Shown here: piece by piece, positions 596 to 60,300 of the stretch
Layout: each line of letters opens with the position of its first letter
Position numbering within the stretch: the first letter of the stretch is position 1
DNA from: Cliona cf. orientalis
Taxonomy: Eukaryota > Porifera > Demospongiae > Clionaida > Clionaidae
DNA: 64,000 nucleotides
Assembly: GCA_963930775.1 (NCBI GenBank)
Contig: OZ005707.1
Coordinates: 1,116,001 to 1,180,000, forward strand
Reading direction: 5' to 3'
The notes under the pieces: model-generated
Told to the model about the DNA's origin: nothing
The model's database searches: none
Seen by the model: only the letters and a program-made list of their open reading frames with translations
Made by a program: the position numbers and the translations under genes

Positions 596-15360
<14,765 letters not shown>

Positions 15361-15715: not shown

Positions 15716-18700
15716 ATGAGCTACCTCCCCAGACTAGCATTGTTAGTGCTAGCTGCCCTTTTCAGTGGACAAGTACAAGCACAGGCACCTCCTTTTGATC
15801 AACTAGAGCCTCAGGCTCAAATTATTGCCTCGGATGATCCTTGTGCAACTGATCTCGGGGTTGCTTCACCTTCAGACAACCTCTCCTGTGAATTTATACC
15901 ACCAGGTGGTGGCACCTTCTGCTACCCCAGAGACGAACTTTGCAATATGAATCCAATTTGCCTTACTGGCTCCGATGAGGGTGCCAATATTGCTGCTTTA
16001 GATTGTAAGTTTTGCATGCAAATAATAATAAAACTATTGTTTAGGAATGGGTATTATTCTGTGGTTGCATATCAGGTACAGGAGAACGAGCCGGGACAAA
16101 TGTTCCAGTTTTTGAGTGTACTTCTGGAGAGAATGTTCTTTTGGAACAGCTTTGTGATGGTATTAATCATTGTAGTGCTGGAGACGATGAAGTTACTCCA
16201 CTTTGCGAGAGTAAGCTATTATTATGGGAATGCAGATCCATAATACTCTTGCATGACTGTATAATAATTATGTGTACCTTTGCAGATAAGTGCAGATATC
16301 CCTATTATGGTGGCTGTCCCTTCACCAGGGAATGTCTTACCTCTGCTTTGGATGTTGGCTGTCCAAATTGCCTTGCTGGCTTCGTTGAAAGTCCCAATAA
16401 TCCTGGTGGACAATGCTTTGGTGAGTTCTAAACTCAGGCTAATTGCAAGATAACTAGGGCCACGTAGTCAATACATGATCTGTTGAGCCTAGAATCTGCT
16501 ACAGATAATAGTTGCATTATTAATTTTAGGGCAAGAAGAGAGGTAATTAATTACCAAGCCTGTAAGAACTCTCTTTAGAGTGCCATATAAGTGCATCATA
16601 CTAGCTACCACTTGGCATACTAAATATGTCGGGCATATGAACTTTTGGATTTTTACATAGTCAACTACTTAGATTTAGCTTTATTATGAAAGGATCATAA
16701 TTATGTGCATGTGCATGGCTGAATCATTCACAACTTATTGTAGTATTGTATTATAATAAAATAATAACTTTACTTGATGTGCAGCTCTCATCGATATTGC
16801 TCTTGAGTTTGACATCTACAACACTGCTGAGGGACTGGGATTTGTTGAAGTGTGTGCAGTGGTTGTTGGTAGAAGTGTAGAGCCCAATGCATTTGCACCG
16901 GTCACTGCTCAACTTGATACATCACCAGGAACAGCTACTGCCGGTAAGAATAGACTGTCAGCTGAAAAGCTGTTGATCATGGTATGACTTCATTTAACTG
17001 CATGCAGCTGATTTTGAGCTCGAGAACCCTCCAGCTTCCCTCACTTTCACTAACACACAGTCAAGGGATTGTGCAAATATTCTAATCTTTGATGACAATG
17101 AAAACGAGCCTACTGAGGCTTTCACTGTGATTCTGAGTTCAACTAACTTTCGAGTGAACATTGTAACAGATCGAGAGACTGCTCAAGTGTTCATTGCAGA
17201 TAATGGTAATATCACTATCATGTTGATACAGCCCTTGAAGTTGATGCTATGAAATTTGCTTTACTTACAGAGGTTCTCTTTGAATTCACCCAAAACACAT
17301 ACATTGGTTTGGAGAGTGCTCCTGGTATTCCGTTTGCCATTCGAGTGGCACAAGAAAGTGCTGTCCTCACTGAGTCAGTGACAGTGACAGTCACTTCTGG
17401 ATCTGGATCAGCAATTGGTATGAGGATATCATCAACTGAGTTAGCGCCTAATAATTATTATTGATTATCCCTTGTTACGATTTGCAGCAACTGTTGATTA
17501 CACCCCAGTTATAGTACAGCTCACCTTTCCTGCTGGGAGTGGACCTTTGACAACCCTTGAAGGACTTCTAAATCCCATTGAGGATACTCGTGTGGAGCCA
17601 AATGAAAATGTCCAGCTTACCGCTATAATTACTGCGGGGACTGGAGCTTTCACACTTAATGGAGACACAGCCACTGTTGTCATTCAGGATAATGACTGTA
17701 CGAAGTTTGCAGCTATTATCACTGAAATAAAATTAATTAACATAGTTGTTGTTATTTACAGTCCTTACAATCGGATTTGAGCCGACCACATACCAAGTCA
17801 CTGAGGCAATGGGTGTAATTCAAGTATGCTTTGAAGTGGAAGAGGACAATGTACTGGACATAGCAGGAGTGGCAAGACTGAACACAGTGTCGGGATCTGC
17901 TATTGGTACGATACAGTTCAATCCACACTATTATCCAATATCATTCTCTTTTTATCTTCTTAGCCTTAGTTGATTTCACACCTCTCAACAATGTGGATTC
18001 CGAAGTAGCTCTCCCCATTGGCACTAGCCTGGGAAATCAATTCTGTACAGACATTGAAATTCTACAAGATGGAGTACCAGAGAATCTTGAAAGCTTTACA
18101 GTCGAGCTTACGAGCGATTCACCCGCATTTGTCATTGTGAATCCAGCTACAAATATGGCCACAGTCAATATACTTGGAGATTGTAAGGCTAACAAGTCAC
18201 AAAACGTAACTCTATAGCACAATGTCATTGACGTTTTCTATTTTAATAGTGATTCAATTTCAATTCTCTGAAGTCACCTACGACGTCAGTGAAGGAGATA
18301 TGTTTGCTCAGGTGTGCCTTGATTTGATCTCTGGTGTACTTGCTGCCGACACTCCCTTTACGATTACACCTCAGATTGGCACAGCTGGAGGTAGAAAAAC
18401 TCAATGATCATACCACTACATAACTATTGATCAAATTTAATAGCTACACTACTCTTTCCAATATCTTCATACAGATATGGATTTCACAAACGTAGCTCTG
18501 CCCACTCTCTTCCCAGCGGGGTCATCCGTTGGGGAGAGGAGGTGCGTTAACATTCCTCTCAACGACGATACTCTAGTTGAAGTTCCAGAGTCTTTCTCCG
18601 TTTCTGCTGATTCAAATGATCCAAATGTTTTGTTTACACCAGGACGTGATACGGCCACAGTCACCATCACAGATAATGACAGTAAGAAAAGTTGTTGATT

Positions 18701-18927
18701 GACACTCACAGAAAGATTATTAATCCATTTCTTCTGTCCATTCCAGTTGCCCAGTTCCGATACAGTCAGACTACCTACGTCGTTGGAGAGTCCAATGGCC
18801 CGGCTGTGCCAGCTATTGAGTTGGTGTTTGGTACACTCACCTTTGACATCGACGTCGACGTAGCCACAGTCGCAGGAGGATCAGCAACAGGTATGTAGTA
18901 ACTCTATCATTTAGTATGATTATTTCA

Positions 18928-18979
<52 letters not shown>

Positions 18980-21900
18980 GCTGGTGATGATTACGTAGCC
19001 ATCCCTACTCAGAGGCTCACTTTCCCAGCTGGGTCATCACCAAATGCTCAGATGCCCTTCAATATTCAGATCTTTCCTGATGTCCTGGTCGAGGGAGATG
19101 AGACAGTCAACCTCATGGCTAACTCTCCCTCCAACTTTGCAATTGTCGACCCTGACTCAGCAACTCTGGTGATTGATGATGACGATTGTAAGTATATTAT
19201 ACTTTAATTAATAATAATATTATTATTGTTTTTTGTTTCTATAGTGCTTGTGCTTCGATTGGAGCAAGTAAACTATCAAGTTCTTGAACCTATTCCCGGC
19301 TTTATTGAGGTGTGCTATCTAGTAGAGGATGGTGAATTGGCCATAAATCTCATCCCAGCTCTGAGGATGTTCACTACCGATGGGACAGCTACTGCTCTCC
19401 CAGGTACATATACATCATAGAGAGGAGTGTGCATAATATAATATATATTATATCTAGCTACTTCTAGAATATTATATTATCATTATGGACCACCTCTCTA
19501 TCTCACTAAACACGTACAGAGACTGAGATTTATCTTTCTAGGTCCTATTCCTAACTAGTACCGGTATTCAGTGTTGCATACTCACTGAGAGTGGATACGC
19601 TGCTATAATATTATATCACTCTATGACACTTACTCCATATTATATTATAGCACCAGGTGATTACAATGGAATTGATATGAACATCAATCTCAATGTCGGG
19701 GTCGGTCAGCCAGGCCTTACGAGGTTTTGTCAAAATATCATCATCAATGATGACCAACTAGCAGAAGGAGATGAATTCTTCACTGTCAGTCTAACCAGTC
19801 TCAATTCTCTGGTTACGATCAATCCACTGTTCAGCTCAGCCCAGGTTCAAATTTTGGACGAGGACAGTAAGTTAAGACTCTAGAGTAGGCAGAGGGGGAG
19901 AGGGAAGGAGGGAGGGAACGATATAGCTGCCCTCCCCCCTCCCCCCCCCCCCCCACCCACACACACACACTGCATCACATCGGACCACTTGATGAATTAA
20001 TTAATATTATCGATGATTAATTAAATAGATATTGAATTTGAATTTGATGAGCTGATATATGACACGACTGAGGGTGGTGTTGCCATGGTGATGGTCTGTG
20101 TCAATCTCGTCAGTGGAACGCTTGTATTAAGGGAAGTCCAGGTCGACGTTCAGCCTAAACCCTATGACCCAGCCTTGGATTCAGCAGAACGTAAGCTACT
20201 TCGTAAAATGCATAGCTAGCAGTACAATTAAAGATACTGTAATTATTCTCTATAGTAGTAATTGTACGGTAGTCTTGTGAAAGCGGCTGATTCTCGAATC
20301 ACATGCATACGCATGGTTCAGAGTAATATTATTCTTGATCCCAATGCTATGTACATGTTATTATGATACAGCTATTCTTGACTATGCTGCATTCTCGGCA
20401 CCTCTGATCTTCCCAATAAATGCAATCCCTGGACAGCAGGAGTGCTTCAACATCCAGCCATTTATCGTTGATGATCTCTTTGTGGAGAACCCAGAGAGTT
20501 TCAGGATAATGCTGTCGTCGCCCGATGCTACTGCTCAATTCATAGCTGGAAGAGACTGTGCAACAATAAACATTGCCGATAATGATCGTAGGTTTCTAGT
20601 AAATTGTAACTACAAGCAGGTACTACACTCACAATTATGAGGATGTCCCTGATAATTAAATTACATGATTCATCATTACAAGATTAATATTACTATTAAG
20701 TGTCCAAGATATATGTAGCTAAAGAAGATAGGATATGGCATTCAAATTTCATCCCATCATTCCATTAATTTTATCGCAGAGGTGATCATTGTGTTTGTGC
20801 CTCCCCCCGGTCTTGGTGTGCCAAGCTATACTACACCAGAGAACACACCCACTGGATCCCAGGAGATCTGTGTTGTGATCCAAGGTGCACCGGCAAACGT
20901 CCTCCAGCGACCAGTCACCGTTAATCTTGTCAGTTCTGATGGCCAACTTGGTGTCAATGGAGCTCAGAGTAAGCTTTTGGCTCAAACTATATACAGTAGC
21001 TAATGAAGGCTGAGTCATCACATTTATTAATTATTCGTTTATTATTATTTTGAGTGCAGGTCCTGGTGACTATGGTGCTATCAACGCACCAATCATCTTC
21101 AATCCGGGACAAGAGGGTCAACAAATGTGCCGAGAGATTCCCATCTTTGATGACATCATCTGTGAAGCAGATGAGGTGTTTAACATTTTCCTCCAATCAA
21201 ATGATCCTGCTGTCAATCTTATCCAACCAGCCGGGACAGTCACCATTATCGACAATGACGGTAAGAATAGCAAATTCATACAAGAAAGGATGGCTTAGAC
21301 ACTAATAGTGTAGTCCCTATTATTAGTCCACTCATAGTATAGAATTAGACTCAGTCACACCACAGTATATTACTCAGGTATATTATTATAATAGTCTAAG
21401 GCTAAGCATGAGACCACTGTCTATGGGCTAATACACACTTCCTCTGTACACTGCTTAGAGTAATGTTAACTTTAGTTGTACCCTACAATATTATTATAAT
21501 AATTATAAGCACCGCTCCACTCCTTGCAGTTGCTAGCGTCTCTGCCGACCAGACTGAATACTGGGTCAATGAGCAAGAGGATCTCTGGATCACTCTCCAC
21601 CTTGATGGACAGAAGGGAGAAGGTCGTGAGTGTGTGGTATCTGTCATGACCGTTGACGGAACTGCAACTGGTGAGCACTTTAGAAATCTATTTGTTGATA
21701 CAACTTAATCACATCTATGACTGTTTCTATAGATGGCGAGGACTATGTAGGCATTGCTGGCACCTATGTATTCAACAGCACTACGTTCACTCAAAGAATT
21801 CAGGTTGACATTATCAACGAGAGGCGCTGCGAAGGAGATGAAACTTTTCACATCTACCTCAACACCGATAGCCCAGGCTGCCAGGTGGCCACACCTGAGC

Positions 21901-22786
21901 TCTACGTCACCATCCACGACGATGAGATAGGGGGAATGGGAGACGATCCTCACTTCAGTATCTACCTACCCTCGGGAGAGATGCTCTGCTACACTGTACA
22001 GGGAGAGCACGGTTTTGCCTTCAACCTCATCAGCAACAAGCAGCTCATCATGAATGCCAAGTTTGTACCGGACGCTCGCAGAGAAGAGGTGACCTGGCTG
22101 GGCTCCATGGGCATCATCATCCAGAACAGCAACTACGGTGGCTCAAACGATACCAGGCTCAGGTTTGAAGCACAGGAGAAGAGCCTCTACATCAACGATA
22201 AGGTCACCCTCAGTGCCAAGAATGTGGAGAAGCTGACCTTCTCCAATGGGAAGATGACAATCTCTGAAGCCGCACCAATGGAGGGCTTCCACTATCCATC
22301 ACTGCTCATTGACCTGCAGGATGTGGAAGTCAGCTTCACTATCAAGTACACCAACCAGCACTTGGACATGTTCTGGCACAGTACGGGAAAGAAGGTCACA
22401 AACTCACATGGAATTATTGGTGAGTCAGCACAATACAATTATCTTTACAAAGTTAGAAGCTGGGTAGCATTGAATAATTATTCTGCTTCATGGTAATTAG
22501 GGTCCAGATGTGCTATATATGACTATTATCATTCTGCATAGGTCAATTCTTCCGTAAGGGCGTTGAGGTGGACAAAGTTAGAAAGATCCTGATCATGCCA
22601 GACAAGGAGCCTGTTCCTGTGATGCGTCGTCCTGTGTGGAGCTTCATGGAGAGAGAGACTCGTGATGACCAGCTCTGCTGGACTGCCATGAACCCTGGCT
22701 ACCAAGGAGAGGGGCTCATCGATGGAACCTACCTCGACTATCTCGTCGATGATGTCATGTCCACAGATTTCAAATTCAAGCAGTGA
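15716..22786 (+). CDS. Gene A: secreted LDLa / Calx-beta(x9) / ITIH C-terminal domain protein
   Basis: Twenty-two exons join into one frame of 1,516 residues: 15716-16004, 16076-16210, 16286-16420, 16785-16943, 17008-17205, 17271-17417, 17488-17697, 17762-17905, 17964-18182, 18250-18390, 18475-18681, 18747-18890, 18981-19187, 19245-19403, 19651-19866, 20029-20190, 20372-20587, 20780-20968, 21060-21260, 21530-21670, 21733-22419, 22542-22786. All introns are phase 1. A signal peptide (about residues 1-22) is followed by two LDL-receptor A-like modules (about 58-141), a six-Cys module (142-186) and nine Calx-beta domains (187-1276), each split over two exons and often ending in DND/DDD. The C-terminal 240 residues match ITI_HC_C: GDDPHF at about 1278, HGIIGQFF, and CW plus GEGLIDG near the end. 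Calx-beta domains usually bind calcium and mediate adhesion. No membrane segment is seen, so a secreted matrix or aggregation role is inferred. Paralogous to the genes at 23546 and 45687. Confidence 0.85.
16421..16784. other. Gene A intron 3
   Basis: A 364-base AT-rich intron between the Cys-rich module and the first Calx-beta domain. Nothing besides splice signals was recognised. Confidence 0.6.
18931..18976. repeat. (CT)n microsatellite at a splice acceptor
   Basis: About 23 CT units lie directly before the TGCAG acceptor at 18976-18980 and form the polypyrimidine tract of gene A exon 13. Confidence 0.9.
22581..22775 (+). repeat. Near-identical last-exon tract, copy in gene A
   Basis: Bases 22581-22775 match 26594-26788 of gene B with one difference (22765 A versus G). 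The first 147 bases also match gene C (45761-45907, minus strand) without difference. The tract encodes the ITI_HC_C end from KILIMPDKEP to the GEGLIDG motif. Sequence just outside it differs between the genes. Confidence 0.95.
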
Positions 22787-23545
22787 CAAATTTTTTAGCA
22801 CACAATTTTTAATATCATTGTTTATAGTGGCATATATACTGTAGGATAGCCGCTGTGCATTATATTAATATTTGTAACATTTATATGTTGTATCTTTCAG
22901 TTCAGTTGATAAAAATTTACTATTATAAGCCAGGCCAGAATGACCAAGTTTACAATAAAATTAATTACCGAATCAAGTCAGCCTGAGGCTACATACCATA
23001 CATAATTTTTTCCTTCAGTATCACTTATATGATTGAATACATTAATTTAATTAATATAGGTTCCTATGTATTACGTACGTAATCGTTGTTTATTATACTG
23101 TGTAACATAAGCTAAGACCTCAATGTATGCTGTCCTCGATTGCGTATCCTGACACAATATGAATTAAGCTCTATGATCAGTTTTCCGGTATCCACATGAC
23201 AGAGAAGATCACTTGTTTCCAAGCACAAATTATAACCGTTTAACAGGCATGCATGTGCTATAATATAGTTATACAGGTAACTCAATAGAATGTACCACGC
23301 ACAGAGTGGCAGCAACCAACGGTGAAATATCAGCATAGCATACCTCAGTAACTACCTACCAGTTGAATACCAGCATACCAGAGATTGCAATTGAATGATC
23401 ATACCATGCCATGGAGGAAGTGCTGCATACTAAGTAGCATTGTCGAGTGAATAGTGGTAGTTGCGGTGACTATAGTAAGTACCACAGTCGATCTGTGGTT
23501 AAAGTAGTCAGGACTTGTCATTTCAACGTCTGACGTGTTCGAAGA
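22787..23545. other. Intergenic region between genes A and B
   Basis: This AT-rich region contains the 3' UTR of gene A and the promoter of gene B. An AATAAA-type signal occurs at about 22954 (ACAATAAAATT), some 170 bases after the stop. No ORF of interest or RNA gene is visible. Confidence 0.55.
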
Positions 23546-26500
23546 ATGCGCTATCTAGCCACTGTGATTGGTCTGCTGGTTGTCTTCAGCACGGCAAGAG
23601 CCCAGGTAAGCAAAGTGACCAAAAACAGTTTTGATTCAATAGGTACAGTAGCTAGCCACAAATAGAGTATTATTATGAAGCAATTTCTCTGTACCCTCAG
23701 CAATAATATTAACAATAATTAATAATGTTCGATTATTAATTTTATAGAGTCGCCAGAAGGCAAAATGATCATGTTTTCTTGATTTAATCAGTTACTGTAT
23801 ATTCTTGCAGGTGAGTGTGGCACTGCAACTAGATTCATACAGATTCTCTGAGAACGACCTTGGGGCGGAAGTTTGTCTTCTGGTGCAGAGTGGAGTTGTT
23901 CAGATTGGACAAACTTTCAGAGCAGGATATGGCTCCTTTGGTGTATCTGCAAGTGAGTCAATAGTAACAGTTACTATAGTATGTACAGTAATAGCAGTTC
24001 AGACCATTGAGTCATTCTATATAGCTGACAGTGTATAGCTAGCTCTGCTACCTCCAGGCCCTCACTTGAATTAGCTAAACTTATTGAATAATTTTATAGC
24101 CTACTATGCACACCGTCACACTCACTCACACTCACACATACACACGTGCACGCACACACACATGCAACATTGTCATAACAGCGGCTTTCATAGACTACAA
24201 TCTCCCTGATGGCGATGTGACTGTGAACAGTAACAACCAATTTAACCCACTCTGTGTTCCGATCCCTATCATCAATGACAATATCCCAGAGTCCGAGGAA
24301 TGCTTCACTATCTTTTTCTTCGATGCGGACAATGATCCACAATTTGATGTCATTGAGCCGGACCAGGCCATGGTCTGTATCGTCGATGATGACTCTGGTG
24401 CTACACGTAAGCATGAAATGTCTGGAGTACTGTCGAGCATAAAAGTGCATGCATGATAATAATATAGTTGAGCTTGGTTGGTAACTAATAGTCCATTATA
24501 AAATATTATCCCATCATATTAGATGAGATACTGAATTCCTATGTATTTTACCATATTAAAGCTAAAGGCCAAGGTTACCAAACAGTGTATGATTGATACT
24601 CCTGACTACCTTAATTATAGCAGATATGCATAATAATATTATATTATTACTTCAATGTACAGCTGCTACTATTGGATTCAGTGTCTCTGCCATCGCTGTA
24701 ACCGAAGGCTCCCCAGCCACTGCCTGTGCTCAGGTAATGAACGGCCAGCAACTCGACAGAGATATAGTCTTCACCATGGCAACAGCAGACGGTTCAGCTT
24801 TGGCCGGTGAAGACTACACCCTCTTGAATGCCGAGCTTTCCTTCAATCCTACCAACGACCAGCAAGTGCTCTGTATGAACATCGCCACTGCTGATAATAG
24901 GTCAATTGAAGGAAACGAAATCTTTTTTGTTGATATTACAACGAGTGCTGCTCAAGTGAGTGTGAATCCTAGCAGGCTTACGGTCACCATCATAGACACT
25001 GATGTTCTCCCACCAGGTATGTTTGTTTATAGAATTCTCCCACCCCTCTCAAGCTCATAACAATTATTCCATTATTATGACATACACAAATAATAATAAA
25101 ATTATTATAGCTACACATTCACACACACCCCCACTTACTCACTGTGCCACAATGCATACAGACCTACTGTACACTTTATAGCCTTTTCTCTTTTCAACAG
25201 ATCCTTGTAATCCCAGCCCTTGTGATCCAAATGCCTCATGTACACCATCTGGTGGCCAACCAACATGCACATGTAACAGCGGCTTCATTGGCAATGGATT
25301 TACATGTAGTAAGTGGACTTTGTATTGATATTTCGACAGCCAATTATTATTATTATTAAATTTTAAACTATTGCAGTGCAAATGGGAGGGGGAGATGATC
25401 CTCACTTCAGCATAGTCCTCCCGTCCGGCCGACTGCTCTGTTTCACAGTCCAGGGAGAACACGGCTTTGCCTTCAACCTCATCAGCAACGAACACCTCCA
25501 CATGAACGCTATCTTCGTACCTGACTCTCAGCGAGAAGAGGTCACATGGATGGGATCCCTGGGAATAATAGTTCACTACGCCACCAATGGCTACCAGGGA
25601 AGCAACAAAACCAGCCTGAGATTTGAGGCAAAAGACGATAAAATTCACATTGGGGATAAGGTCACCCTCGATGCACGCGGCATACACTCTCTTGTGTTCA
25701 GAAATAACAAAATGTTCATCACAGAGGCTGAGAGTGGGAAGAAAATAGTGTACCCTTCCGTGACTGTGAATATGGACGACGTAGGCCTGCATTTTACGAT
25801 CAGATTTGTGGGAGAACACTTGGATATCTACTGGGATGATGTCGCTGCTCAGTCTCCAGAGGCCAGTGGACTCATAGGTATGACATTGTGCATTAAGGTA
25901 CTCGTGGCATGTGACGCTAATCTTCTAGGAAGGAATTTTTTGATACCAATTCTGGGAAATCTATACATTCCAAGCCATAGTGAATGCACACAACAGCCAT
26001 ACAATCCTCCCATTATCTTGACTTAATCACCAGGTGGCATGAAGGTTTTTGTTCAACTGCAAAAATCAATTAAAATTAATTATCCCCGTGGGAAGGTCTC
26101 ACACATGCACCAATACATTTTAGTCCTAGCTTGCCAGTGCACAGCAACCATCAACTAGGGCTGAAAATTTAATAATTGCAACTCTAACAATCTATAATTA
26201 TTACCTGCTCGAGACATTGTTATGTACAGCTGAGTATACATGTAAACATTAGTCGATAGATAAATCCTGTGAATGTCATGAAGTCATGCAGAAGGGCTGA
26301 ACCATAGTGGGCTAACCCACAAAATTAATGTTGAATTAGCCCCCCGAATCTTGAAAGTATGTTTAAAATGTGTCTCATGAGCTGCAGAAAATTCACATTT
26401 CTGAAAAATTCAGTAACTTGGTAGAGTACAATGTATGGTTTTTAGTCCATTTTTGGGCTTTTTAGACAATTCCCCGCATTTAATTTGGGGGTTAGCCCAC

Positions 26501-26814
26501 TATGGTTCTCGGCCCTTCATTATTATTATTATCAAGCCAATATATTCGTTACAGGTCAGTTTTTCCGCAAGGGAGTGGACATCGATGAGACGAGAAAGAT
26601 CCTGATCATGCCAGACAAGGAGCCTGTTCCTGTGATGCGTCGTCCTGTGTGGAGCTTCATGGAGAGAGAGACTCGTGATGACCAGCTCTGCTGGACTGCC
26701 ATGAACCCTGGCTACCAAGGAGAGGGGCTCATCGATGGAACCTACCTCGACTATCTCGTCGATGATGTCATGTCCACGGATTTCAAATCTCCCCTGCACA
26801 ATACCCTCAAATAA
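23546..26814 (+). CDS. Gene B: short Calx-beta(x2) / EGF / ITIH C-terminal domain protein
   Basis: Seven exons give 549 residues: 23546-23605, 23811-23952, 24182-24406, 24663-25016, 25201-25308, 25377-25877, 26555-26814. Exon 1 encodes a 20-residue signal peptide and ends in phase 0; the other introns are phase 1. Calx-beta domain 1 is split over exons 2-3, but domain 2 lies whole in exon 4, unlike genes A and C. Exon 5 encodes one EGF-like domain (about residues 261-296, six Cys). The ITI_HC_C domain begins with GGGDDPHF at about residue 304 and ends with CW and GEGLIDG. The LDLa and Cys-rich modules of A and C are absent. It lies 759 bases downstream of gene A on the same strand. It is likely a secreted, smaller family member that shares whatever the C-terminal domain does. 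Confidence 0.85.
25878..26554. other. Gene B last intron, with an inverted-repeat element
   Basis: A 677-base intron directly before the converted last exon. The inverted-repeat element at 26291-26518 fills its 3' part and ends 36 bases before the acceptor. A short ATT repeat follows. Confidence 0.6.
26291..26518. mobile_element. MITE-like inverted-repeat element in the gene B intron
   Basis: The left end (GAAGGGCTGAACCATAGTGG then GCTAACCC) is mirrored by the right end on the other strand (GAAGGGCCGAGAACCATAGT then GGGCTAACCC), giving terminal inverted repeats of about 30-40 bases around a roughly 150-base AT-rich core. No ORF. No clear target duplication was identified. Confidence 0.65.
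26594..26788 (+). repeat. Near-identical last-exon tract, copy in gene B
   Basis: See the gene A copy at 22581-22775: one mismatch in 195 bases. The first part of the same exon (26555-26593) is clearly diverged from A and C. Confidence 0.95.
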
Positions 26815-45686: not shown

Positions 45687-48600
45687 TCACAGTTCATTGC
45701 CTTTGCGGCTGAAAGTGAATTTTGGTGAAAGAATGTTCTTTACAATGTAGTCTGAGTGTTTTCCATCGATGAGCCCCTCTCCTTGGTAGCCAGGGTTCAT
45801 GGCAGTCCAGCAGAGCTGGTCATCACGAGTCTCTCTCTCCATGAAGCTCCACACAGGACGACGCATCACAGGAACAGGCTCCTTGTCTGGCATGATCAGG
45901 ATCTTTCGCACTTCATCCACCTCAACGCCCTTATGGAAGAACTGTCCTGAAAGGGGTACAAAAAGTGGATCAACAGCTTAGTATTTTATTGCTATACTCA
46001 GTGCCTATTAATTTCACATAGCAGCATGAAAACTGTTGCCAAATTACATGTAAAGGGTATAGCCAGTGCTGTTCAAAGGTAGGCAGTCAATTTATATACG
46101 CTTTAAAGTTTTTTCCCCCACCAAGGCCCACTCATTATTATTATTAAATACCTATAATTCCATGTGAATTTTCTGTCTGTTGCTTTGTGCTGTGCCAGAA
46201 GAGATCCAGATGCTCCCGTTTGAACATCACAGAGAAACTTACGCCAGCCACGTTGAATCTTACCGACGGATATCTGAACCCCTTTGAAAAATGAGCAACT
46301 TCAGATATCCTCAGCTTCCCATTCATCACTGCTATTTGATCGATATCGGCAGGGTGTAACTTGATCTTGTCATTGATGGAGAGTGAGGGGTGTGGCAAAG
46401 ACTCCAATCTAATGGAGGTCCTATTATCGCCACGGAAGTTTGATCCATGAATGACTAGGCCCAGGGAGCCTATCCATGTCACCTCCTCCCTGCGCGAGTC
46501 GGGAACAAACAGCGCATTCATCGTCAGATGCTTATTGCTGATGAGGTTGTAGTGATAGCCATGGTCTCCTTGTACGGAGAAGCAGAGCAGTTTCTTGCTG
46601 GGCAATACCACGCTGAAGTGGGGATCATCACCAAGTGTCACATCTGCATGTGCGATAATTGATGTAATGCAATTATCACTTATTGATCATGTATGTAGTA
46701 TTATTCATGCCCCAACTGCTATGATGTGTCACCATGGAGACTGTCAATGTCAGTACCATTGATCCTGAGGCATCTCCTCATGTTATTAAACTCTTACCGG
46801 CTGTGTCATCATCCTCAATGAAGATTTGAGCCACACCCCTGTTGAATATCAATTGGTCAGGTGGAAATGATGTTTGCACTGTAGAGAGAGTCAAGATGAA
46901 GTATTCCAAGTCTTCTGCCACCCCATCATCAATGATGTACTCTGATATGTTCAAGCATTGCTCCACATCCTGATTCACATAAGTGATGTTAATGAAGACA
47001 TCCTCCAGTGGCAGGAAATCCAATGATTCTGTAATTTATGCACAAAATAGTACAAAGATCTCAGTTATCTGTGAATATGAACTATGTCATTGTGGTAGAT
47101 AATAAAAAAAATGGTCTTCTTTAGGGTGCCCTTTAAATTTGCCACCCCCCCCCCCCCTCCCCATAATATTATAGAGTCAAGCAATGGTACACTGACCTGT
47201 AGCATTGGAAGCTTCCATTGCAGTAACATTGATGTCCGCCTCTCCGTCTCTCTCCAGCTTCCCTTCACTCACGATCACACACACCTCAGAACGATTGGCC
47301 CCTCCAGGACCTCCTTCTTGCACGGTGTAGCTGGCCTTGGTGAAGGTCACCACAAGCTCTGAAAATTATCATAGACTAGCTACTGAGCTAGCTGTATGGT
47401 AAGCGTGCATGTTCTTTGCTCACATGCTACCCTCCCTCTATGATATGGTATATGAATGGATTGACCTCCATAACCTACCGAAATCCAAAAGAGGAAACCA
47501 TCCTAGTCTCAGTGCTCAAGCACAAACATAGAGCCATTTATTGGATACTTGATCATTATTAAATTTTTATAACTTACCATCATCATCATAGATCACCAAG
47601 GTGATCGTATCGTTGACAAATTCCACTTGATTATTATCCGAGTTCAAGACCAGCTGAATGTAGAGCACCTCATTTCCCTCAACAAAGCTATCGTTGATGA
47701 CCGTAATGTACACTGTCTCATTGAAAATCCCCGAGAGGCAGATATCATCACTCTCTCCTGTGTGAAAGAACATGCACATTTGGCACAAAATTTCTTTACA
47801 TTTTAAATTTTATGTGGTGGACATACCTGGTTGATAATTATTGCCAGATCTAGTGCTGTTGGATATTCTGACAGTGCTGTTGCTATTTATAGTACTATTA
47901 CCATAGCTGAAGCCACTGCCAGAGCCACTTCCAGAACCAAAATCACCTAAATTAGAGTACACATTGGAAATGTCATGACAAGAGTGCTGATAGCTATATA
48001 ATATTATAATACTGGTATATTTATATGTGGCTTCCAGAAATGTGACAATTGCGGCTGTTTAATATATGTGGGATCTCACCTAGCAATGCTAATAACAGTT
48101 ACTATTACAGCCTAAAGCCATGAAGACTGTGGTACTGACAATGTGTATATACATGCTCCAATAATGAGCACAGCTGTCTCTCTTAAGCAGCACTGCTAAT
48201 TATTTGAATTGTACATCCGAGACTCACATAGTGCTATTGGAGATCCATCTACCAGCACCAAACCAAGATCACGTTGAGGATCAAATCCACCTTGAATGCC
48301 TCCGGGGCTAGGAGCAGAGCCAAAGCCAGGACCAGAGATTTCAAGAGCAAAGTTCAGCTTAGTTCCCTCATTGGTGGTGAACACTTCTTGCTCAAAGCCG
48401 ACAGTTATTGGCACCAGGGCTACATAGTGATGGTGCAGCAAAGTGAGATATTTCACCAAGTTTCTTTTTATTGAGAACAAAGTAGCTACATTCTGAATAT
48501 CCAGACAAGTAGACTAAAAAGGAGCATGTGCTCTGGCTAAAAATTGACACGTTCTACATACCATCATCATCCAAGATCATGACTGTAGCAGTTAAGTTGC

Positions 48601-51600
48601 TAGCGTTTGATACACCAACTTGTGTAAGTAGGTCAAGAGAGACTGTGAATGTTTCACTCGCTTCCTCTATGCCATCATCAGCGATCATTATTTCAAACTC
48701 AAATCGATACGAAGTCTCTGGAAATTGCGCTGGAACAAGTATCATGCTTGAGTTCCGCATAATATCATAGTCGTCTCCTGTTTGGAATATTAAGGCGGGT
48801 ATGTGTAAGGAGCTGTTATTGTTGTTGCTATGGTAACTTCTGACCTGATACAGCTGTGTAATTTTCCAGGACAACTCTGAACTCCAGAGGCACCTCCCAC
48901 CCACCAGATGATGTAATGGACACATTGACAGCAAGGGTTCCGTCAGATTCCAATACTGAGTACTCCCTTTGCTCAAAAGTGATTGTTAGTTCTGCAAAAT
49001 TGATAGTCAAAAGATGATACAAGTAGCTAATTAATTAGCTTGGGGGAGGGGGGTCTTACCATCATCGTCCAAGATGATAAAAGTTGCCGTTGTGATACTC
49101 ATATTTGCGAGCACTAACTGTTCCGCTGGCAGTAGCTGGAAGGTGACATTAAATGTCTCAGTTAGCTCAACTATATCATCGTTAGTTATATTTGTTTTGA
49201 AAGAGATGCGTTGTGGACTCATTGGCCATGGCTCGATGACTGCAGTCAGTATCTCGTTAGTGAAGTCCAACCCTGCATTAAATTTAAATTAGTTTTTCCT
49301 CGCTTGCATAACAATAATTACTCTAGTAACTGTTATTAAACTAGCTAGCAAATTAATATTTTCCAGGCTCATTCCCAGCACTGATTTAATGTGCAGCATT
49401 GAAAAAGTACCGGAGACGATGCTTTGTTTGACTAGCTTAAAAATACACACATGTAATAAAGTTCAAGTAAATATTCGCTGACCTCCTATTGCATCTACGT
49501 CTTGAAACGTAAATTGTACGTCCACAGCGACGACCGAACTACCAGTAGGAAATGTAATCTCAACTTCTCCCATTGCTACCATAGCTGACTCTGCTACAGT
49601 ATATTCCTCTTGTGTCCACACTGCTGTGAATTCTGTGGAATATATTATTATTATCAGAGTACATGTCATTAATATTGTACGGGAGCGGATAGGAATGAGG
49701 GTATACAACTCGCCTTCATTGTCTTGTATGAAGACAGTTGTTGTGACATTTTCAAACCCAGTTAGGTTACGTATGGCTAGTGTGAAATATTCCTCTCCTT
49801 CAAACACATTATCATCGGTGATCATAATCATTGCAGTATACACTGAAGGATCTATAATACAAAAAAAAATACGTATTATAATGCATTTTACTCAGTCTGG
49901 GGTATAATTATTATATTTACCTCCTGTTGGAAATGCTGCTGGCATTGGAAAGGAGTAATCAACTATATTATGAATAAAGTTGGTACATTTAATAATAGCA
50001 TCAAATAATGAAGCACTCTTGAAGGGCTTACCATTAAGCGTAGCTGTTCCATCCACAGCATTGAGAGGTATTGAATCCACAAGAATGTTTGTGTTGATGT
50101 TAATCATTATCGTTTCATCTTCCGTTGCCATTACTGTTGCATCCTCAAACATAACGGCTCGCTCTAACAATTGATTCAATCACAAAATTAGTATCCATCA
50201 TAGCTAGATTGAAGTACAAGTATTTGTTAAGAATTCATCTTGCAAAATTATATGCTCCTATTAGTATACAGCTTGCTTCTTTCCATCATAGCTAATAATA
50301 TTACTTTGGGGCCTAGCTCATAAACTTTAATTGTAATGGTTGTCCTTACTGCTTTATATAATAATATGGCTTACCTGGTGCTTCAAGAGTAACATTTGTT
50401 GACATGGTGCTGACACTAACACTACTTGAAGTATCAACGTGTACCAAGTTCACAACGTACATGATACTCATGCCAGCCACTTGCGGAACATTGTCAAAGG
50501 ACAGTGTTACGTCAGCATAACTATCCCCTGGTAATACAGTTACTGGACCTGCAGGCATTGATCAAAGTGCCAAAAAGGAGTAATTAGCTATCAATATTGA
50601 TTAATGACCTAATTTCTTAGATAGAGAAAATTGCTAGCTTAGAAGGAATTGGCTTAATTTGCTTAGAACAAATTGTAGAATCGCTTAGGATATCATTCAT
50701 AAATTTGACCCTTTGGGACCATGCACCATACTTAGTGGCTATATATAGCTAATATCTGACCAACCTGTGTCCATGACAGCCATGGCCATGAAGCCAGAGA
50801 CAACAATGTCCAGTGTGATGCTCGTTGCTAAATTACCATAGATCATTATTCTGAGTGTGATATTGGTGTCCTCCATGGGTACAGTGTAAGATACTTGCTC
50901 GAAAAACACAGTGGCAACTGATAGTATGACAAAATAGTTATTTTTACCATGATAATTATTTTCATATCTTACTATCGTCATCCAGAATAGTAATAGTTGA
51001 CATATTGTTGCTAGCAGCTGAAATGGGTAGTGATTCTATGGGCTGGACAAAGAGAGTCAGAGTTTCGTTGCCTTCCACCAGATTATCATCGATTATGGAC
51101 ACATTGAAGTCAAAATTGGTGCTAGCAGTACATGGAGGGATGTTGATCAGTTGAGTCTCATTGACAAAATCAATACCTGCGGATAAAGAGATTTGAATGA
51201 AAACTTTAACAATACTCAGCAGTATACAGATATGGTATGGAGGTGATGAAGGATAAAACAATGAATTTGTTCTAACGATACTCAAAAAGTGTATGGGTGT
51301 GGTATAATAATATATGGTCCCCTCAGAGATACTGAGAGCTAAATCAATGAGTTGTACTAACCTTCAGTTGCTGTGATGCCTAGCAGTGATGTCATGAACG
51401 TCACTGGAATGGCCAGTCCTCTGGCAGGAGGTGTCACTGTGAGTGAGACTTTAAGATTCTCTGATGTCTCTTCAACAGAGTAGTCTTGTAAGTTCACAGT
51501 CAGTTCTGTAGAGCAAAGCATACATTATAAATTTATTCCAAATGAGAGCTATTTCGCAACTTGAATACCGAAGTTACCTATGGAAATATATATAATGATA

Positions 51601-54600
51601 TGCTTGATATTGTGTACCTTCATCATCCAAAATTGTAATTGTGGCATTCAAGATGCTATCATCCGACACACCAACTTGTGTAAGTAGATCAAGAGAGACT
51701 GTAAATGCTTCACTCATTTCCAGTATTTCATCATCAATAATCACAATCTCCAGCTCAAACCAATATGATGCATTTTCAGACAGCTGTGCAGGAACAACTA
51801 TCGTACCGTTTGAAATTTGCATTCTAAAGTCCTGCCCTGTGATATAGGAGACAGAAATTCAAAAATTCAATGTAGATCTAGCATCTTATGCAAGAGTACA
51901 CTGTCATGTCATAAGCTGTTTATACAGCTGTTTCTGACCTAGTGTAGCAGAATCATTCTGTAAGATGACATCAAACTCCAGAGGTACCTCCCACCCACCA
52001 AAAGATGTGATGGATACATTAACTGCGACTGTTCCATCAGACTCCAATACAGAATACTCCACTTGTTCAATGGATATTGTTAGTTCTGTACATAAAAAAG
52101 GCACAAATATAGGGTAGAGGGAGTCTACAGGTTTATGTGTGTATAGCATTGTCTAGCTAGCTATAAGATTGGGTGGCTAACCGTCATCATCCAAGATCAC
52201 AAAAGTTGCTGTTAAGATGCTTGCACTTGAAATAACTAGATGTTGTTCAGGTTGTATCTCGACCGTGACATCGAATGTTTCATCTAACTCCACTGCCCCA
52301 TCATTGGCTATAGGTATTTGAACAGATGTATTTCCTATTTGGCCAATAAGATTAATGATGGTTGTATTGGTATAGTCAAGCCCTGCATGAAATCAAAGCA
52401 CAGTAAGCAATGAAATCTTACATACAGTAACATAATTTTTTCCTCACCGCCAGAAGCACTTATGTCTTGATATGTGAAAAGTGCTTCTATTCCACGGGCG
52501 ATACCTCCAGAGGGGAATGTTACCAACACTATTCCAGTTACTGTACCAGCTGACTCCATAATAGTATATTCCTGCTGTTGCCATTCCACTGTAAATTCTG
52601 CAGAATGATTTCGTGCAATATTATTGTAATACCAAGTAATATGAGACTCACCTTCATTATCCTGGATGACAATTGTTGTGTTGACGAATTTGAATCCAAT
52701 GGGCTCTACGACTGATATTATGAAGTACTCTCCTCCTTCGAAAATATTGTCGTCAATGATGGACACAGAAAGATTGTACTCTGTGGAACCTGTGAAAGTG
52801 AATGTTGCTATTTAGATAGATAGACATGATAATGTGAATAAAGACTGTCCAATTAGGCATAGCAGAAAGAAGCTTACAATCTCTATACTATACACATCAA
52901 TATCTATTCAGAATTTTTGCTTAGAATATTGTACCTAATGGCAGAGATATATCTTCGAAGTTTGATAGCATATAGTCCACTGTGAGCAATAATATATCGT
53001 AATAATAATGTATTATTATTACTGTTGATTGGTAATTACTTGTAGATGCTGTTCCATCAGTGACATTGAACGTTAAGTTTCCCACGAGTATGCCACTGTC
53101 TATCGTGAGAGTGGCTATTGCTGTCATTCCCTCCACTACCATCACCATTGACTCTTCAAAGGAGATTTCCAACTCTGAAAATAGGTTAGAGAGTGTGAAG
53201 CAATCAAAGTGTAGCTAAGTGTGAGTACACACCCTAGTTGTTCATAAAGCTTCAATATGCACCACCTCAGTGACCTGTTTGTTGGCTGTGATACCTTAGC
53301 CTCATCCCCAGGCCCTCCTAGCTTGTCAATGTTAGCTACTCACAGAAAACCTGGGAGCTAGGGCCTTGGGACCTACCTGGTACATAGGCGTAGGAACCAT
53401 GGGGGCTCCGGGGGCTGGTGTCCCCTATGTTTTCTGATAGTTACATAGCTAGACTGAATTTTATACACACTGATCATACTGCCCTTGCCTATAGATTTGT
53501 AGAGTCCCCCTTTACCAAACCATCTTCCTACGCCCCGGTGGTATGTGAGATGTACCATGGGTATCTCAATAGCTACTATTTGTACGGCTAGATATAAAGA
53601 TATTAATCCTGATGACACTGAGATTCTAAAGCCATCTATTACCAGGGCCTAGGTTGGTTAGTGTAGCTATGTGTGCTTATATTATCAGTGCTCACCTATT
53701 GGCTCGAGAATGATCGTTGATCGAGTGCTGCTGACATTCACACCACTGCCAGCATCAGTTAGCACCAAATCCACATAGAGCACTTGGTCTAGGCCCGTCA
53801 TTGTCACATTATCGAAGTACAGTGTCACATCTGCATAGCTTCTTCCCGGCATAAGAGTCACTGGACCTAAAATATGATATTCAGACACCCAATTGAAGTG
53901 CTTGATAATAATTATTGTAGGCTGTATGGTTTTGTGTGTACCGACCTGAACTCCTGACACCTTCAACTCCATTGAAGACGACTCCTAAAGTGATACTGGT
54001 TTGTAAGGTCTCATTGATCATGGCTCTGATTGTGATATTGGAGGCCGCTACCGAAATAGTATAGGAGGCTTGCTCAAAGAACACGTTGGCAACTGTGCAT
54101 GGTAGACAGTATTGGGATTGTTACTAGCTACATCTTCCCTCCCTCTCTCTCTCCCTCTCTCCCCTTTAATCCTCCATCTTTCACTTACTGCTTTCATCAA
54201 CGATGGTGAATTCAATGGTTGAATTATTAGTTCCCACGATTGAAATGTTGAATGTCTGATTTCCTTCAATTATCATATCATCCAAGATATTGATTGTGAA
54301 TTGCATTGCTCTCTCCATAAGATTGTCACCCATAAATGTCACATATGGCATGGAGGGCATAAAGGTGAAATCCTCTCCACCTATTGAAAGAAAAGTATAC
54401 TAGAAAACGTCTTTACCTAATTTGGTGTATAATTTACTCATGGCTGTTTCGTCTGCAAAGTCAAGTTGATAGGTGACAGTTGTGTTCTCCTGTACTTGTC
54501 CCTGGAGTACTACTTCAAGTGTGACACTGCTCCCCTCAGAAATTTCCGTAACACCACTGACGGTTTGAAGAAAGGCCACCACATCTAAGCATTGGAATTA

Positions 54601-56789
54601 ACACACACAACTTAGTTTCACGAAAATTCTTGAATCTTAATTTTCTTCTAGTCTTATCCCCAGGCTCCCCATTCTTTCAATGTAGCTATATAATAATGTG
54701 ACAGTTGAAACGACTGAAGAAATCTGGGGATGAGGCTATAATATTCTTGTTCTCTAGTGCCTCATCTAGCAAAAATTTAATAAGACTGAGGTACTTTTGA
54801 AATGATGTCTTGAAGTGTTACCTACCATCATTATCTTCGATAAGGATTGTCACGCTTGGTACAGGTGATGCAAGAAGGTCAGGTGTGCTTGCAGAAATGG
54901 GCCTCAGAGTGACCTGTTCGGGAATGGATCCTTCGTGAACAGTATCTTGTATGATCAAAACACTGAAGCAGAACTGTGAGCCACCCATGATCATTGTGGC
55001 TGAGCTAGCTCCAGGTAGCTGAAAATCATCTGTACATAGTACGTGTAATATCAGTAGCAGCTGATTAATCTACGTATTAGTACCATTACTTGTGGCATTG
55101 GTAGCAGATGGATCCACTTCTAGACCAATTTCCAATGATGTTCTTGTGATAGTGACGGTCGTACTGAAACATATCTGAACTGTTTGACCTTCCATTGCTA
55201 TCAGTGTACCATCACCAGTTGTCAGTGTAAATGCTGCATGAAAGTGTTATACAGTCCAGCACTAAATTTTACTCAAGTTATGTATATTAATGATAGGGGA
55301 CATACTCTCTCTTTCCAAGATTTGCACAGAGGAGGTATCCCCACTCGGAAATTCTACATCTGATGTTGTTTGAGCATTTTGCAAAGAAACTGTGAAGTTT
55401 TGATCATTCTCAATGACTCCCGTGTTGATTCCATTTGTAATGGCGACGCACATCCGACCCAAGGTACTGTTGAAGAATATGAAATCCATTGTAGTCACGG
55501 TAGTGCCACTGCCTGTTCAAGTGGACAATGTATAATAGTAATGAACAATGTAGTGTTTCTGTGTCATACTTGATGCTATCAAGGAGTAGGTGAGTGTCAC
55601 ATTTCGATCTCCTAGTGATGCTAAGGAGTTACTGCCGACCAGTACACTAGTGTCAATCAGCACCGTCCAACAAACTTCAAATGCCATGGACATCGAATTT
55701 GATGTGAATACAAATATCTGGTTTTCCCACTCAACATTCACAGGAATTTCTGCAGTTGCCAAAGTGAAATTTTTTTATTAGATAATAATAGTTATATGAG
55801 TGGGTGCAGATACGCTAGCTCCTGCAATAATTATTATTAGCACATCTGCTAAATAGGATTTTCTATTCCATGGCAAAAGTTAGGTATTGATGCCCTTAAA
55901 TTAATATCACATGGCTCTTTTGCTCACCAATGCATCTCTCTACTCCCATTACTACCATTAGATAGTAGCCCTCCAAGCAGTCTCCACAGGTCCGAAACAG
56001 TGGTTCCGAGTCCCGACACTCCCGATTAAAGGCTCTGCAGCCACCGCTGTAGTCTCCAAAGCACTTATCTGCAATATGTTGTAAGCACGCATGAATTAGC
56101 AGTCTACCGTATTATTAGCTGACTTAATAAATTAAGTACCTGCACATAAGGGGTTGATTTCATCAAATCCATCATCACAGGTGGCATTGCCGTCACATAG
56201 TTCATCCAGTCGCACCATTTGTCCGTTTCCATCACGACACCGAAAAAAATCCATTGCTGTAGTAATGACAAAATGTACTAGCTAGCTCCGTAACATTAAA
56301 GCATCCATGCATGATTATTATGTTATGGTAATAATAATACCGATAATGCATTAATTATATACATGCCTTTTTATTCTGATCCATGAAATCTATCCTACTA
56401 GCTATCGGAATTTAATTCTCCAGTACAATGAATCTATAATAATAAACCTGGTGATTGTGCACATTTATCAACTCACTGCATATTAATGTTGGGTTGAAGC
56501 TCTCACCGCCACGGTTTCCCATATCACCTTCATCAATATCAACGGGACAGTCTCTGTTTTCATCACAGAGAAGCTCATAGGCTGAAACGTTGGGTGGTGG
56601 AACCAGGCACTGAGAAATGGCTGAGTTGTTGGCGTCCAAGCTGATGCACTGCAGATTGAATCCCGTGATGCTGATGCAGTCAAAAGCCTCTACACCTCCT
56701 GCTATCAGTAGAGAATAGACAGCAAGATAAATCAGGGCCTTTGTAGCTGATGCTCTACTTGGCTTCATCCTCCTGTGAGCTCTCAACAT
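45687..56789 (-). CDS. Gene C: secreted LDLa / Calx-beta(x14) / ITIH C-terminal domain protein
   Basis: Thirty-six exons join into 2,115 residues: 56477-56789, 56140-56256, 55928-56068, 55570-55749, 55306-55512, 55090-55233, 54826-55029, 54438-54584, 54189-54380, 53946-54092, 53696-53866, 53040-53174, 52935-52979, 52652-52789, 52448-52597, 52182-52382, 51939-52085, 51618-51836, 51362-51505, 50973-51176, 50765-50917, 50375-50548, 50032-50163, 49921-49962, 49714-49851, 49483-49632, 49060-49272, 48845-48991, 48562-48777, 48228-48419, 47827-47946, 47578-47757, 47197-47358, 46798-47028, 46152-46643, 45687-45946. Every intron is phase 1. The start may be 56789 or the second Met at 56768, which gives a cleaner signal peptide. 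The order is signal peptide, LDLa-like module, LDLa (about 105-143), Cys-rich module (144-190), about 14 Calx-beta domains (191-1865) and ITI_HC_C (GDDPHF at about 1872 to the end). Domains 4-7 and 9-12 are a duplicated block. One intron (after 49714) seems to use a GC donor. Closest in layout to gene A, in inverted orientation. Confidence 0.82.
45761..45907 (-). repeat. Identical last-exon tract, copy in gene C
   Basis: These 147 bases, read on the minus strand, are identical to 22581-22727 and 26594-26740. Immediately 3' the coding sequence changes completely (KHSDYIVKNILSPKF instead of the TYLDYLVDDVMS of genes A and B). Confidence 0.95.
48845..54092 (-). repeat. Internal multi-domain duplication in gene C
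   Basis: The exon series starting at 54092 (FFEQASYT.., SYADVTL.FDNV), 53174, 52597 (EFTVEW) and 52085 (YSVLESDGTVAVNVSIT) is repeated in the same order starting at 50917 (FFEQVSYT.., SYADVTLSFDNV), 50163, 49632 (EFTAVW) and 48991 (YSVLESDGTLAVNVSIT). The offset is a near-constant 3.0-3.2 kb. The domain starting at 51505 has no partner in the second block. Confidence 0.85.
53295..53380. repeat. CTCATCCCCAG hairpin repeat (diverged copy)
   Basis: The left part TTAGCCTCATCCCCAGGC then TTGTCAATGTTAGCTA matches the family at 43177 and 54648. The right arm (CTGGGAGCTAGGGCC) is only partly conserved. It lies in the gene C intron before the exon at 53174. Confidence 0.5.
54648..54739. repeat. CTTATCCCCAG hairpin repeat (MITE-like)
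   Basis: CTAGTCTTATCCCCAGGCTC at the left is mirrored by TCTGGGGATGAGGCTA at the right, with TTTCAATGTAG inside, as in the RAB8 intron copy. It lies in a gene C intron. Confidence 0.65.
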
Positions 56790-57353: not shown

Positions 57354-60300
57354 CTATGGGTTCACGGAGCAGACCCATTCTGCATTTACATCAGTCGATT
57401 CACAGGCACTGCAGGAAGAAAATGAAAATCAATAAAGCCTTAGGGCACTTTTTCTCATGATTTGTTCAAAACTAACCAGATAAGGCTTTCATCTGAGACA
57501 TTGCTACCAACTGGGTAGAATATTCCATCCCTTATGCAGCCCCGGTCACAAGTGTCAGCCGTGCAGTGCCAGCGCTCTCCACTGAGCTCATCCCCTCGAC
57601 AAATACTGCAGAGTGGATTGGATAATACAGCAGAGATCATTAAATTAATGGTGATCAAGGTTATCGAGCCCTGGATCTTTAACTGTTACCAAGCTTGTTA
57701 ATTAATTTATTCAAATCTTTATGATTAATTTTATTAGACTGTGATCAATGTCAGTCTTACCACCAATTGCATCCAATCTTTACTCTGTCCCCGATAAGGT
57801 ACTCATATCCATTATAAGGACAGACTGTAATGAGAAATTAGCGAGTGATTTATAGTAGGTAGATCTATCATTCATTAATTTAGGATTAGGACATAAAGCA
57901 ACGGATATAAGGTGGAACGTACCACCACAGTTGAAGCCATCCATTGCCAGAGTTTTGCCTTCAGGGCAGCTGCAGGAGTAGGTATTGGGTTCATCCACAC
58001 ATCCATCTGAGCAAAGATTCTCTGAATTCTCTTGACACTCATTGATATCTAAAGTGAATATTACAGTGATTTTTATGACCACAGTGATTAAGTATTAATA
58101 TAGCCATCACTGTACCTTCAAAATTGTAATCAGGGCAGCATCTTCCTGGGAATCCATTCCCACGATAGTCTGGAATTGGTTGTACACCCTGTCCGCATTC
58201 CATGAGGAGTGGGCATGAGATATTGGGACACACACACTCGTACAAGACACAGCAGGCACTAATCCTAGTGGAAACTATGATGGAATCTGGTGGACACTGG
58301 TAGGGAGGGGTCGGGCAATCACACACAGTATCGCTACAGTCCATGAAGGGAATGGTAGCCGGCGACTGGTTGAAACAGATATCACTGGAATCAGCTGCAT
58401 GTGAAAAGAAAAGAGAAATCAGATAATACCTCATTAAATTTTATACTCGCAAGGTGGCTTAAATTCTCATCCCATTGCCATGACAACCTTTCCATGTGAT
58501 CTTAAAAGAAACTAGAAATAGGAGCTGTAGTAGATATGGCTCAGGTTTAAATTTTAAAGTCTTGAGTGATTAATCGATGCTAATAGAGCTAAATAGTATC
58601 GTAATTAGGCTGCTGGGATGCATACATCTGCATGTGATCTGCTCCTGCCCAATGAACCATTTGGCTGTGCAGGCACCACAGTAGTCAGCTCTGCAGACTG
58701 CTGTTGGGTGTGATGGACACTCTGCATTCCTGCAAGGGTCACCATCACACTGAACCAATGGAATCCCTCGTGGACAGTCTATAAATAGTAACAAAAACAA
58801 TAATAAAGATAGAACCAGTATTACTATAGACAAAGTTTCATTATTTTACCTCGAGTTGGTGTAGGGTCAGGGGCCCCTACTTCAATTTCACAATATTCTC
58901 CTTCAAATCCTGCCGGACATGAGCAGTTGTATGCCTCAGGCATAACTCTCCTCACTGCAATATCTGTACAGTTTGGATCTAGATCACTACCGCCACATAC
59001 ACCGTTGTTCTGACACAGTGAAGGCAGCAACTCTACTGTTAAAGACATTGTGGAGCTCAGCCTTCCATTTGAGTCTCCTACGAGAATCTGGATCATATCG
59101 ATACCTGTAAAAGCTGGATCATTGGGAAGATAAGTGATATAGGCCCCGATGAATGTAATGTATCCTGTGAAATCTGTGAGGTTGTGGTCAACATTGTCAG
59201 GAAATGTCAGGGGTAAGGACTCTGGCGTGTTGACAGCGTCTAGCCAAATCTGAAAGCCACCCGCTCCGTACATGCCATTCCTCACAAATACAGATATGTC
59301 ATCGTGGTAGCCATCATAGTCAAACGCAGCAATACTTGCCACTATAGCTGGTGCGGTTCGATTGGCTTCAGCATAGACGTAGAGAGTTGAATTGAGAGAG
59401 ACCACATCCGAGCCAACTTCAGCGTAGAAAATCACCTCAGGACGGTCGTTGTCGTTGGTAATATTAATCAGCAGCTGTCCTCTTGCCGGGAGTGGAATAT
59501 GGCTCTCACCAAATGGCTGCTCAATTACGTATACTTCAAGGACATCTAAACCGGTGCAATTTCCACACGGTTCATAGGTCAGCAGTCCGTCGATGCTGAG
59601 AGTGGCGTTTCCAAGTTTTGGTGCCGAAGCAAGATAAAAATCAACAAGATCACCTTCATTGTCTGAGAATTCAAGCTGGTATTCAAGGATTGTGTCTTCG
59701 ATGATCTCCAGGGGTTCCACTGGCAACTGGAGCTCAGGTGCAGTATTAGTGGAGACATTGCCAATTCTCATTAAGATGAAGTGGACTGGGCGATCGAGGT
59801 AGTCTGTCACTGGAATGGAACTCACGTCCATCGTTCCACTTCCCATTCCACTGCTTGTGACTGGATCCATTCCCATGTTTGCCTGCCTTCGACGCCTAGC
59901 AAGGCTTTCAGGTCGGGTAACAGTTTCTGTCAGCACTGTTGAGCACACCTGCAATAAAATTAAATAAGTACTTATCAATTTTTGCGATTTAAATTATGAC
60001 AATAGGCGGTATACCTGTACTGCTAGGGTGAAGGTGCTTTCGTCAACTCGTGAAGAATTCATACAGGTAGCACTAACTTCTCTCCATACTTGCTCATCTA
60101 CAGTATATAAAGTCATCATAAGGAGCTCACAAAAAACAATTTCTTAACATCAATGGCCACCTAGCTATATTCTTACCAACATCCCAGTAGCCCAGCTCTG
60201 GAAATGCTGTTGTCCAGTCAAGAGTTGAGTCGTACGTTACATTGATTTCCAAAGGAGCATTGAGACTGTCTTGCCCCAGGAAAGAAACATAGAAACTTGG

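Follow-up and report, generated by a model that had tools for sequence, protein, structure and literature searches.

The C-terminal site of the inter-alpha-trypsin inhibitor heavy chains (ITIH) reads DPHF in ITIH1 and ITIH2. Sponge aggregation factors are another system to be compared with this locus, as they are secreted proteins with Calx-beta arrays. Work by Grice in 2017 is said to have described a Wreath domain in them. According to PMC7828597, about half of a sponge aggregation factor is acidic glycan. In inter-alpha-inhibitor, the C-terminal Asp of the heavy chain is reported to form an ester with the GalNAc C6 hydroxyl of chondroitin sulphate, and the chain can be transferred to hyaluronan (PMC4661386). 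An Asp-Pro-His motif also stands at the start of the VWD domains of FCGBP, MUC2 and SUSD2. In a VWD domain of FCGBP, the cut is described as abolished by any one of the substitutions D->A, D->N and H->N, and as aided by a Gln close to the side chain of the Asp (PMC10880436). The same source gives ITIH3, 5 and 6 a predicted domain with VWD topology, in which GDPH lies between the first two strands (PMC10880436).

The window, a stretch of 64,000 nucleotides (G000:C19:1116001-1180000), was taken from an assembly with 149 contigs and a total length of 216.8 Mb. Its genes are intron-rich, and three of them, A, B and C, encode predicted secreted proteins with Calx-beta arrays, secretion being judged on hydropathy only. 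All three end in a domain of about 240 residues, which is encoded by two exons, starts with GDDPHF and carries the motifs (I/L)IGQFF, Cys-Trp and GEGLIDG. The two domain exons are joined via a GT/AG intron at a common position, after the Gly of (I/L)IG, with the bounds given in Table 1. Identity to the domain of A is 67% for B and 63% for C. An earlier note on this DNA had claimed such a terminal domain for the three genes, and this was borne out, as the motifs were found and the exons spliced into single domains. The range given there (15716-26814) contains A and B, while gene C lies outside it. The predicted cut at residue 304 of B agrees with the earlier numbering, whereas the scissile Asp is residue 1146 in the model of A and 1689 in that of C instead of 1278 and 1872, because both models probably omit some Calx-beta exons.

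Table 1. Positions in the window of genes A, B and C, of their C-terminal domain exons and of the predicted cut sites.
Feature	Positions	Strand	Description
Gene A	15716..22786	+	predicted secreted; 1384 aa in a 20-exon model; hydrophobic stretch at the N-terminus, weak LDLa, nine Calx-beta stretches, DPHF domain at the C-terminus
A domain, first exon part	21939..22419	+	GDDPHF ... SHGIIG
A domain, second exon	22542..22786	+	QFF ... CW ... GEGLIDG ... stop
Predicted Asp-Pro cut, A	21945..21950	+	motif DPHF
Gene B	23546..26814	+	549 aa; hydrophobic stretch at the N-terminus, two Calx-beta, EGF, DPHF domain at the C-terminus
B domain, first exon part	25391..25877	+	
B domain, second exon	26555..26814	+	
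Predicted Asp-Pro cut, B	25397..25402	+	motif DPHF
Gene C	45687..56789	-	1932 aa in an incomplete model; hydrophobic stretch at the N-terminus, seven or more Calx-beta stretches, DPHF domain at the C-terminus
C domain, first exon part	46152..46632	-	
C domain, second exon	45687..45946	-	
Predicted Asp-Pro cut, C	46621..46626	-	motif DPHF

The Pfam scan of protein A gave 283 bits for Calx-beta and 23.3 bits for Ldl_recept_a (cut-off 24.1). Protein B scored 101 bits for Calx-beta and 33.9 bits for EGF_3 (cut-off 28.5); one 54-base exon was judged spurious and removed from its model. Gene C encodes 48 N-glycosylation sequons upstream of the predicted cut site. The Pfam scan returned no VIT or VWA match in the predicted proteins A, B and C, which supports the absence of both domains claimed earlier. 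Beside the Calx-beta genes, the window also has long open frames on the minus strand (58824-63711 and 6194-6733), which gave weak matches to Ig-like/fn3 and one match to SRCR (32.7 bits, cut-off 26.1). A, B and C resemble the aggregation factors in being predicted secreted proteins with Calx-beta arrays. Calx-beta genes are numerous on this contig, where further exons of this kind are abundant at about 156-226 kb, 303-307 kb, 1.7-2.2 Mb and 2.97-3.0 Mb. With 150 of the 973 candidates scored, the genome has at least 165 Calx-beta matches.

Between the last exons of the three genes, unbroken stretches of identical DNA reach 185 bases for the pair A-B and 147 bases for A-C and B-C. The DNA identity of these exons is 80-93%, and that of the first domain exons is 58-61%. 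This pattern indicates recent gene conversion, across strands too.

The occurrence of the domain in the genome was also analysed. The first domain exon has at least 27 genomic copies, and two queries from different branches led to the same places. From the upstream same-strand exons, that is from neighbouring exons rather than from transcripts, 6 copies were assigned to Calx-beta, 9 to CAP and 12 to NIDO. The sixth Calx-beta copy (L003) was assigned via Calx-beta exons about 3 kb further upstream, in L042. Examples checked with Pfam scored 25.8 and 23.9 bits for CAP (cut-off 21.1) and 96 and 92 bits for NIDO. NIDO is a neighbour of VWD in MUC4-type proteins, and it also adjoins the copies here. 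Two copies look damaged: L022 (G000:C15:3178817) has an in-frame stop and L018 (G000:C7:7538019) a frame shift at the end of the first exon.

The tie of the domain to Calx-beta proteins made in the earlier note holds for 6 of the 27 copies, but the other 21 lie beside CAP or NIDO exons, and a module confined to Calx-beta proteins was rejected on this ground. A tree built from 24 domains placed the Calx-beta group and the NIDO group each on one side of a branch (100/99), whereas the CAP group needs two changes. This grouping indicates that the N-terminal partner of the module has changed at least twice. VIT domains were found at 10 genomic places, and the nearest one on the same contig as any copy is 692 kb off, for which reason a conventional ITIH in the neighbourhood of a copy was also rejected. 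The broader and firmer result of this work is that a single C-terminal module, apparently of the self-cleaving type, has come to stand on secreted proteins of three kinds. Among the literature matches listed, none reports the DPHF domain for proteins with Calx-beta, CAP or NIDO parts.

The family of the domain was assigned with Pfam. The spliced domains of A, B and C matched ITI_HC_C (PF06668) with E values of 9e-5, 6.4e-5 and 1.8e-5 and scores of 22.6, 23.1 and 24.9 bits, below the curated cut-off of 27, and no other Pfam family matched them up to E 10. Five of six paralogues elsewhere in the genome also matched this family (E 1.7e-5 to 0.057), and the best score seen, 25.0 bits, is still under the cut-off. 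The scan covered 17 distinct domains, taken from 24 stop-free copies with near-identical ones omitted and including A to C and the six paralogues; 14 of the 17 matched ITI_HC_C at E <= 1 and none matched VWD (PF00094) at that level. The match is weaker in the whole predicted proteins A, B and C (E 0.0033, 4e-4 and 1.8e-4), the unspliced first domain exons alone gave zero Pfam matches, and a direct PF06668 search of the whole genome found nothing, the controls of that search being silent too. ITI_HC_C was unmatched in 3 of the 17 domains and also in two variant copies, L039 and L054.

Owing to the scores below the cut-off and the matches missing in some searches, the domain is termed a relative of ITI_HC_C and not a certified member; this assignment is supported, at a sub-threshold score. 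The ITI_HC_C identity proposed earlier thus stands insofar as this is the nearest Pfam family and Asp-Pro-His is kept, and falls short at the curated cut-off. The Pfam comparison with VWD, proposed there as a check, came out on the side of ITI_HC_C, and a VWD match without an ITI_HC_C match was absent. The two profiles do separate, as the genome's own VWD domain L046 scored 70.4 bits for VWD and had no ITI_HC_C match. An ordinary VWD domain was rejected on the 0/17 Pfam result and because the 14 genomic VWD places overlap none of the 27 copies, the nearest lying 20 kb away. The domains resemble ITI_HC_C in this sole Pfam match, in the Asp-Pro-His at the domain start and in the C-terminal position; they differ from ITIH in their low scores, in having neither VIT nor vWA, and in standing behind Calx-beta, CAP or NIDO. 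Profile searches of the PDB gave no match for A1 and one chance match for A3 (E 0.44), and the best NCBIfam match of the domain (E 0.028) was unrelated. A prokaryote genome scan gave 84 pattern matches and no relatives, which says little as the query was two heptapeptides special to A to C only.

A more distant kinship with VWD was examined with hhalign. The profile of the 24 copies against eight of the genome's own VWD stretches gave P 0.0094 with an HH-suite probability of 4.4%. With one VWD fragment and the gap-rich columns dropped, the comparison with seven own VWD domains gave a score of 31.0 (P 7.6e-4), and the alignment was collinear over 158 columns (columns 2-185 on 24-191). None of 300 column shuffles scored as high (best 23.8), and the reversed profile gave 15.2. 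Removal of the first eight columns lowered the score to 22.3 (P 0.018), a level that shuffled profiles also reach, so that much of the VWD signal comes from the DPHF end. The domain is like VWD in its Asp-Pro-His start and in the collinear profile match, but unlike it in the Pfam result, in having only two internal cysteines and in the D, S or G before the Asp. Taken with the VWD topology predicted for ITIH domains (PMC10880436), these values make the kinship likely, though not proven.

The conservation of the cut site was analysed in the aligned copies. Gly1, Asp3, Pro4, His5, Phe6, Cys17, Gln21, Gly22 and Cys-Trp are invariant in 24/24 copies, and the residue preceding the scissile Asp varies (D, G or S), being Asp in A, B and C, unlike the Gly of GDPH. 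Gln21 aligned by hhalign on the Asn of FNG in the genome's own VWD domains; we infer that it may play the same part as the Gln of FCGBP. DPHF is present in 26 of the 27 first exons, L022 and L038b counted. The exception is the CAP-linked copy L039 (G000:C10:5155234), in which NPHF amounts to a natural Asp-to-Asn change at the predicted cut. An orphan paralogue, L054 (G000:C12:94985-95506), follows a signal-like stretch, has SPRF in place of DPHF and gave 0 Pfam matches.

The same variants lacking Asp-Pro-His would suit a plain binding domain that stays uncut and keeps DPHF for reasons of the fold, and the FNL, MNA, TW and Cys-Trp positions are indeed conserved as strictly as DPHF. This explanation is improbable, as the residues required for the cut in VWD are kept in 26/27 copies while the residue just before them is free to vary. 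An Asp-Pro cut in these proteins is judged likely.

The explanation which we favour, with somewhat better than even confidence, is that A, B and C each end in a self-cleaving module of 240 residues, which is of the ITI_HC_C type and probably a distant relative of VWD. The self-cleaving reading is based on the sequence kinship, the Asp-Pro-His-Phe conservation, the two conserved cysteines, the absence of VIT and vWA, and the three kinds of secreted partner. During export from the cell, the Asp side chain would attack its own carbonyl and the Asp-Pro bond would open, leaving the Calx-beta part with a C-terminal Asp. The activated Asp would meet either water or a glycan hydroxyl.

What becomes of the two pieces depends on the cysteines around the site. 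Exactly two internal cysteines are present in 23/24 domains, with three in L029. In 16 of the 19 G-S-D copies, a cysteine is among the three residues that precede the motif; the 6 Calx-beta copies have none there, most of them carrying a Gly-rich stretch instead. In gene B, the nearest cysteine before the site is the last one of its EGF. It is conceivable, though rather unlikely, that the cut pieces are held together, the first strand staying in the fold so that the domain is stabilised and nothing is released. The cut is reported to stabilise FCGBP D10 (PMC10880436), and the cysteine near the motif in the G-S-D copies could tie the first strand; the Calx-beta copies lack this cysteine, however, and nearly all the domains have only the two invariant internal ones. 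Since the three proteins lack a cysteine shortly upstream of the site, the last one of the EGF in B excepted, the self-cleaving module would give two pieces with no evident disulfide between them. The cut would then free the Calx-beta part in a propeptide-like manner, and the module may be a propeptide that matures, and possibly activates, the C-terminus of a Calx-beta adhesion protein.

The earlier note went further and proposed the full ITIH-like chemistry, in which the new C-terminal Asp is esterified to a chondroitin-like or other acidic glycan to give a proteoglycan with Calx-beta arms. The cut Asp of these proteins may form an ester with a glycan, and the full chemistry is a doubtful prospect. 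It agrees with ITI_HC_C as the nearest family, with the known ester of the heavy-chain Asp and the transfer of that chain to hyaluronan, and with the acidic glycan of aggregation factors. In addition, CHGN, the family of the chondroitin polymerases, has 26 matches over the cut-off in the genome, and 9 of these exceed 190 bits. Against it, PMC10880436 reports no partner other than water for the cut of VWD domains, which takes place at the same motif. The ester of inter-alpha-inhibitor requires a chondroitin chain as its acceptor, and in this genome neither an acceptor proteoglycan nor a transferase was identified. A genome search for Xlink, the TSG-6/hyaluronan-binding module, returned 0 matches, with silent controls and no positive control. 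The interpretation of the earlier note as a whole is partly supported.

Extended to the approximately 27 genes, this reading would have the shuffled self-cutting module provide each Calx-beta, CAP or NIDO protein with an activated Asp, which would bond the protein by an ester to acidic matrix glycan. Such an ITIH-type assembly of protein and glycan, independent of VIT/vWA, hyaluronan transferases and bikunin, is still less probable than the ester in its narrower form.

If the module cuts, it would offer a ready explanation for the maturation of large Calx-beta matrix proteins, and an ITIH-type domain would be able to work outside the VIT-vWA context; the natural variants NPHF and SPRF would serve as built-in negative controls. 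If the ester also forms, a base-labile C-terminal Asp would be its simple signature in proteoglycan preparations, and the chemistry by which heavy chains are transferred would extend beyond hyaluronan matrices.
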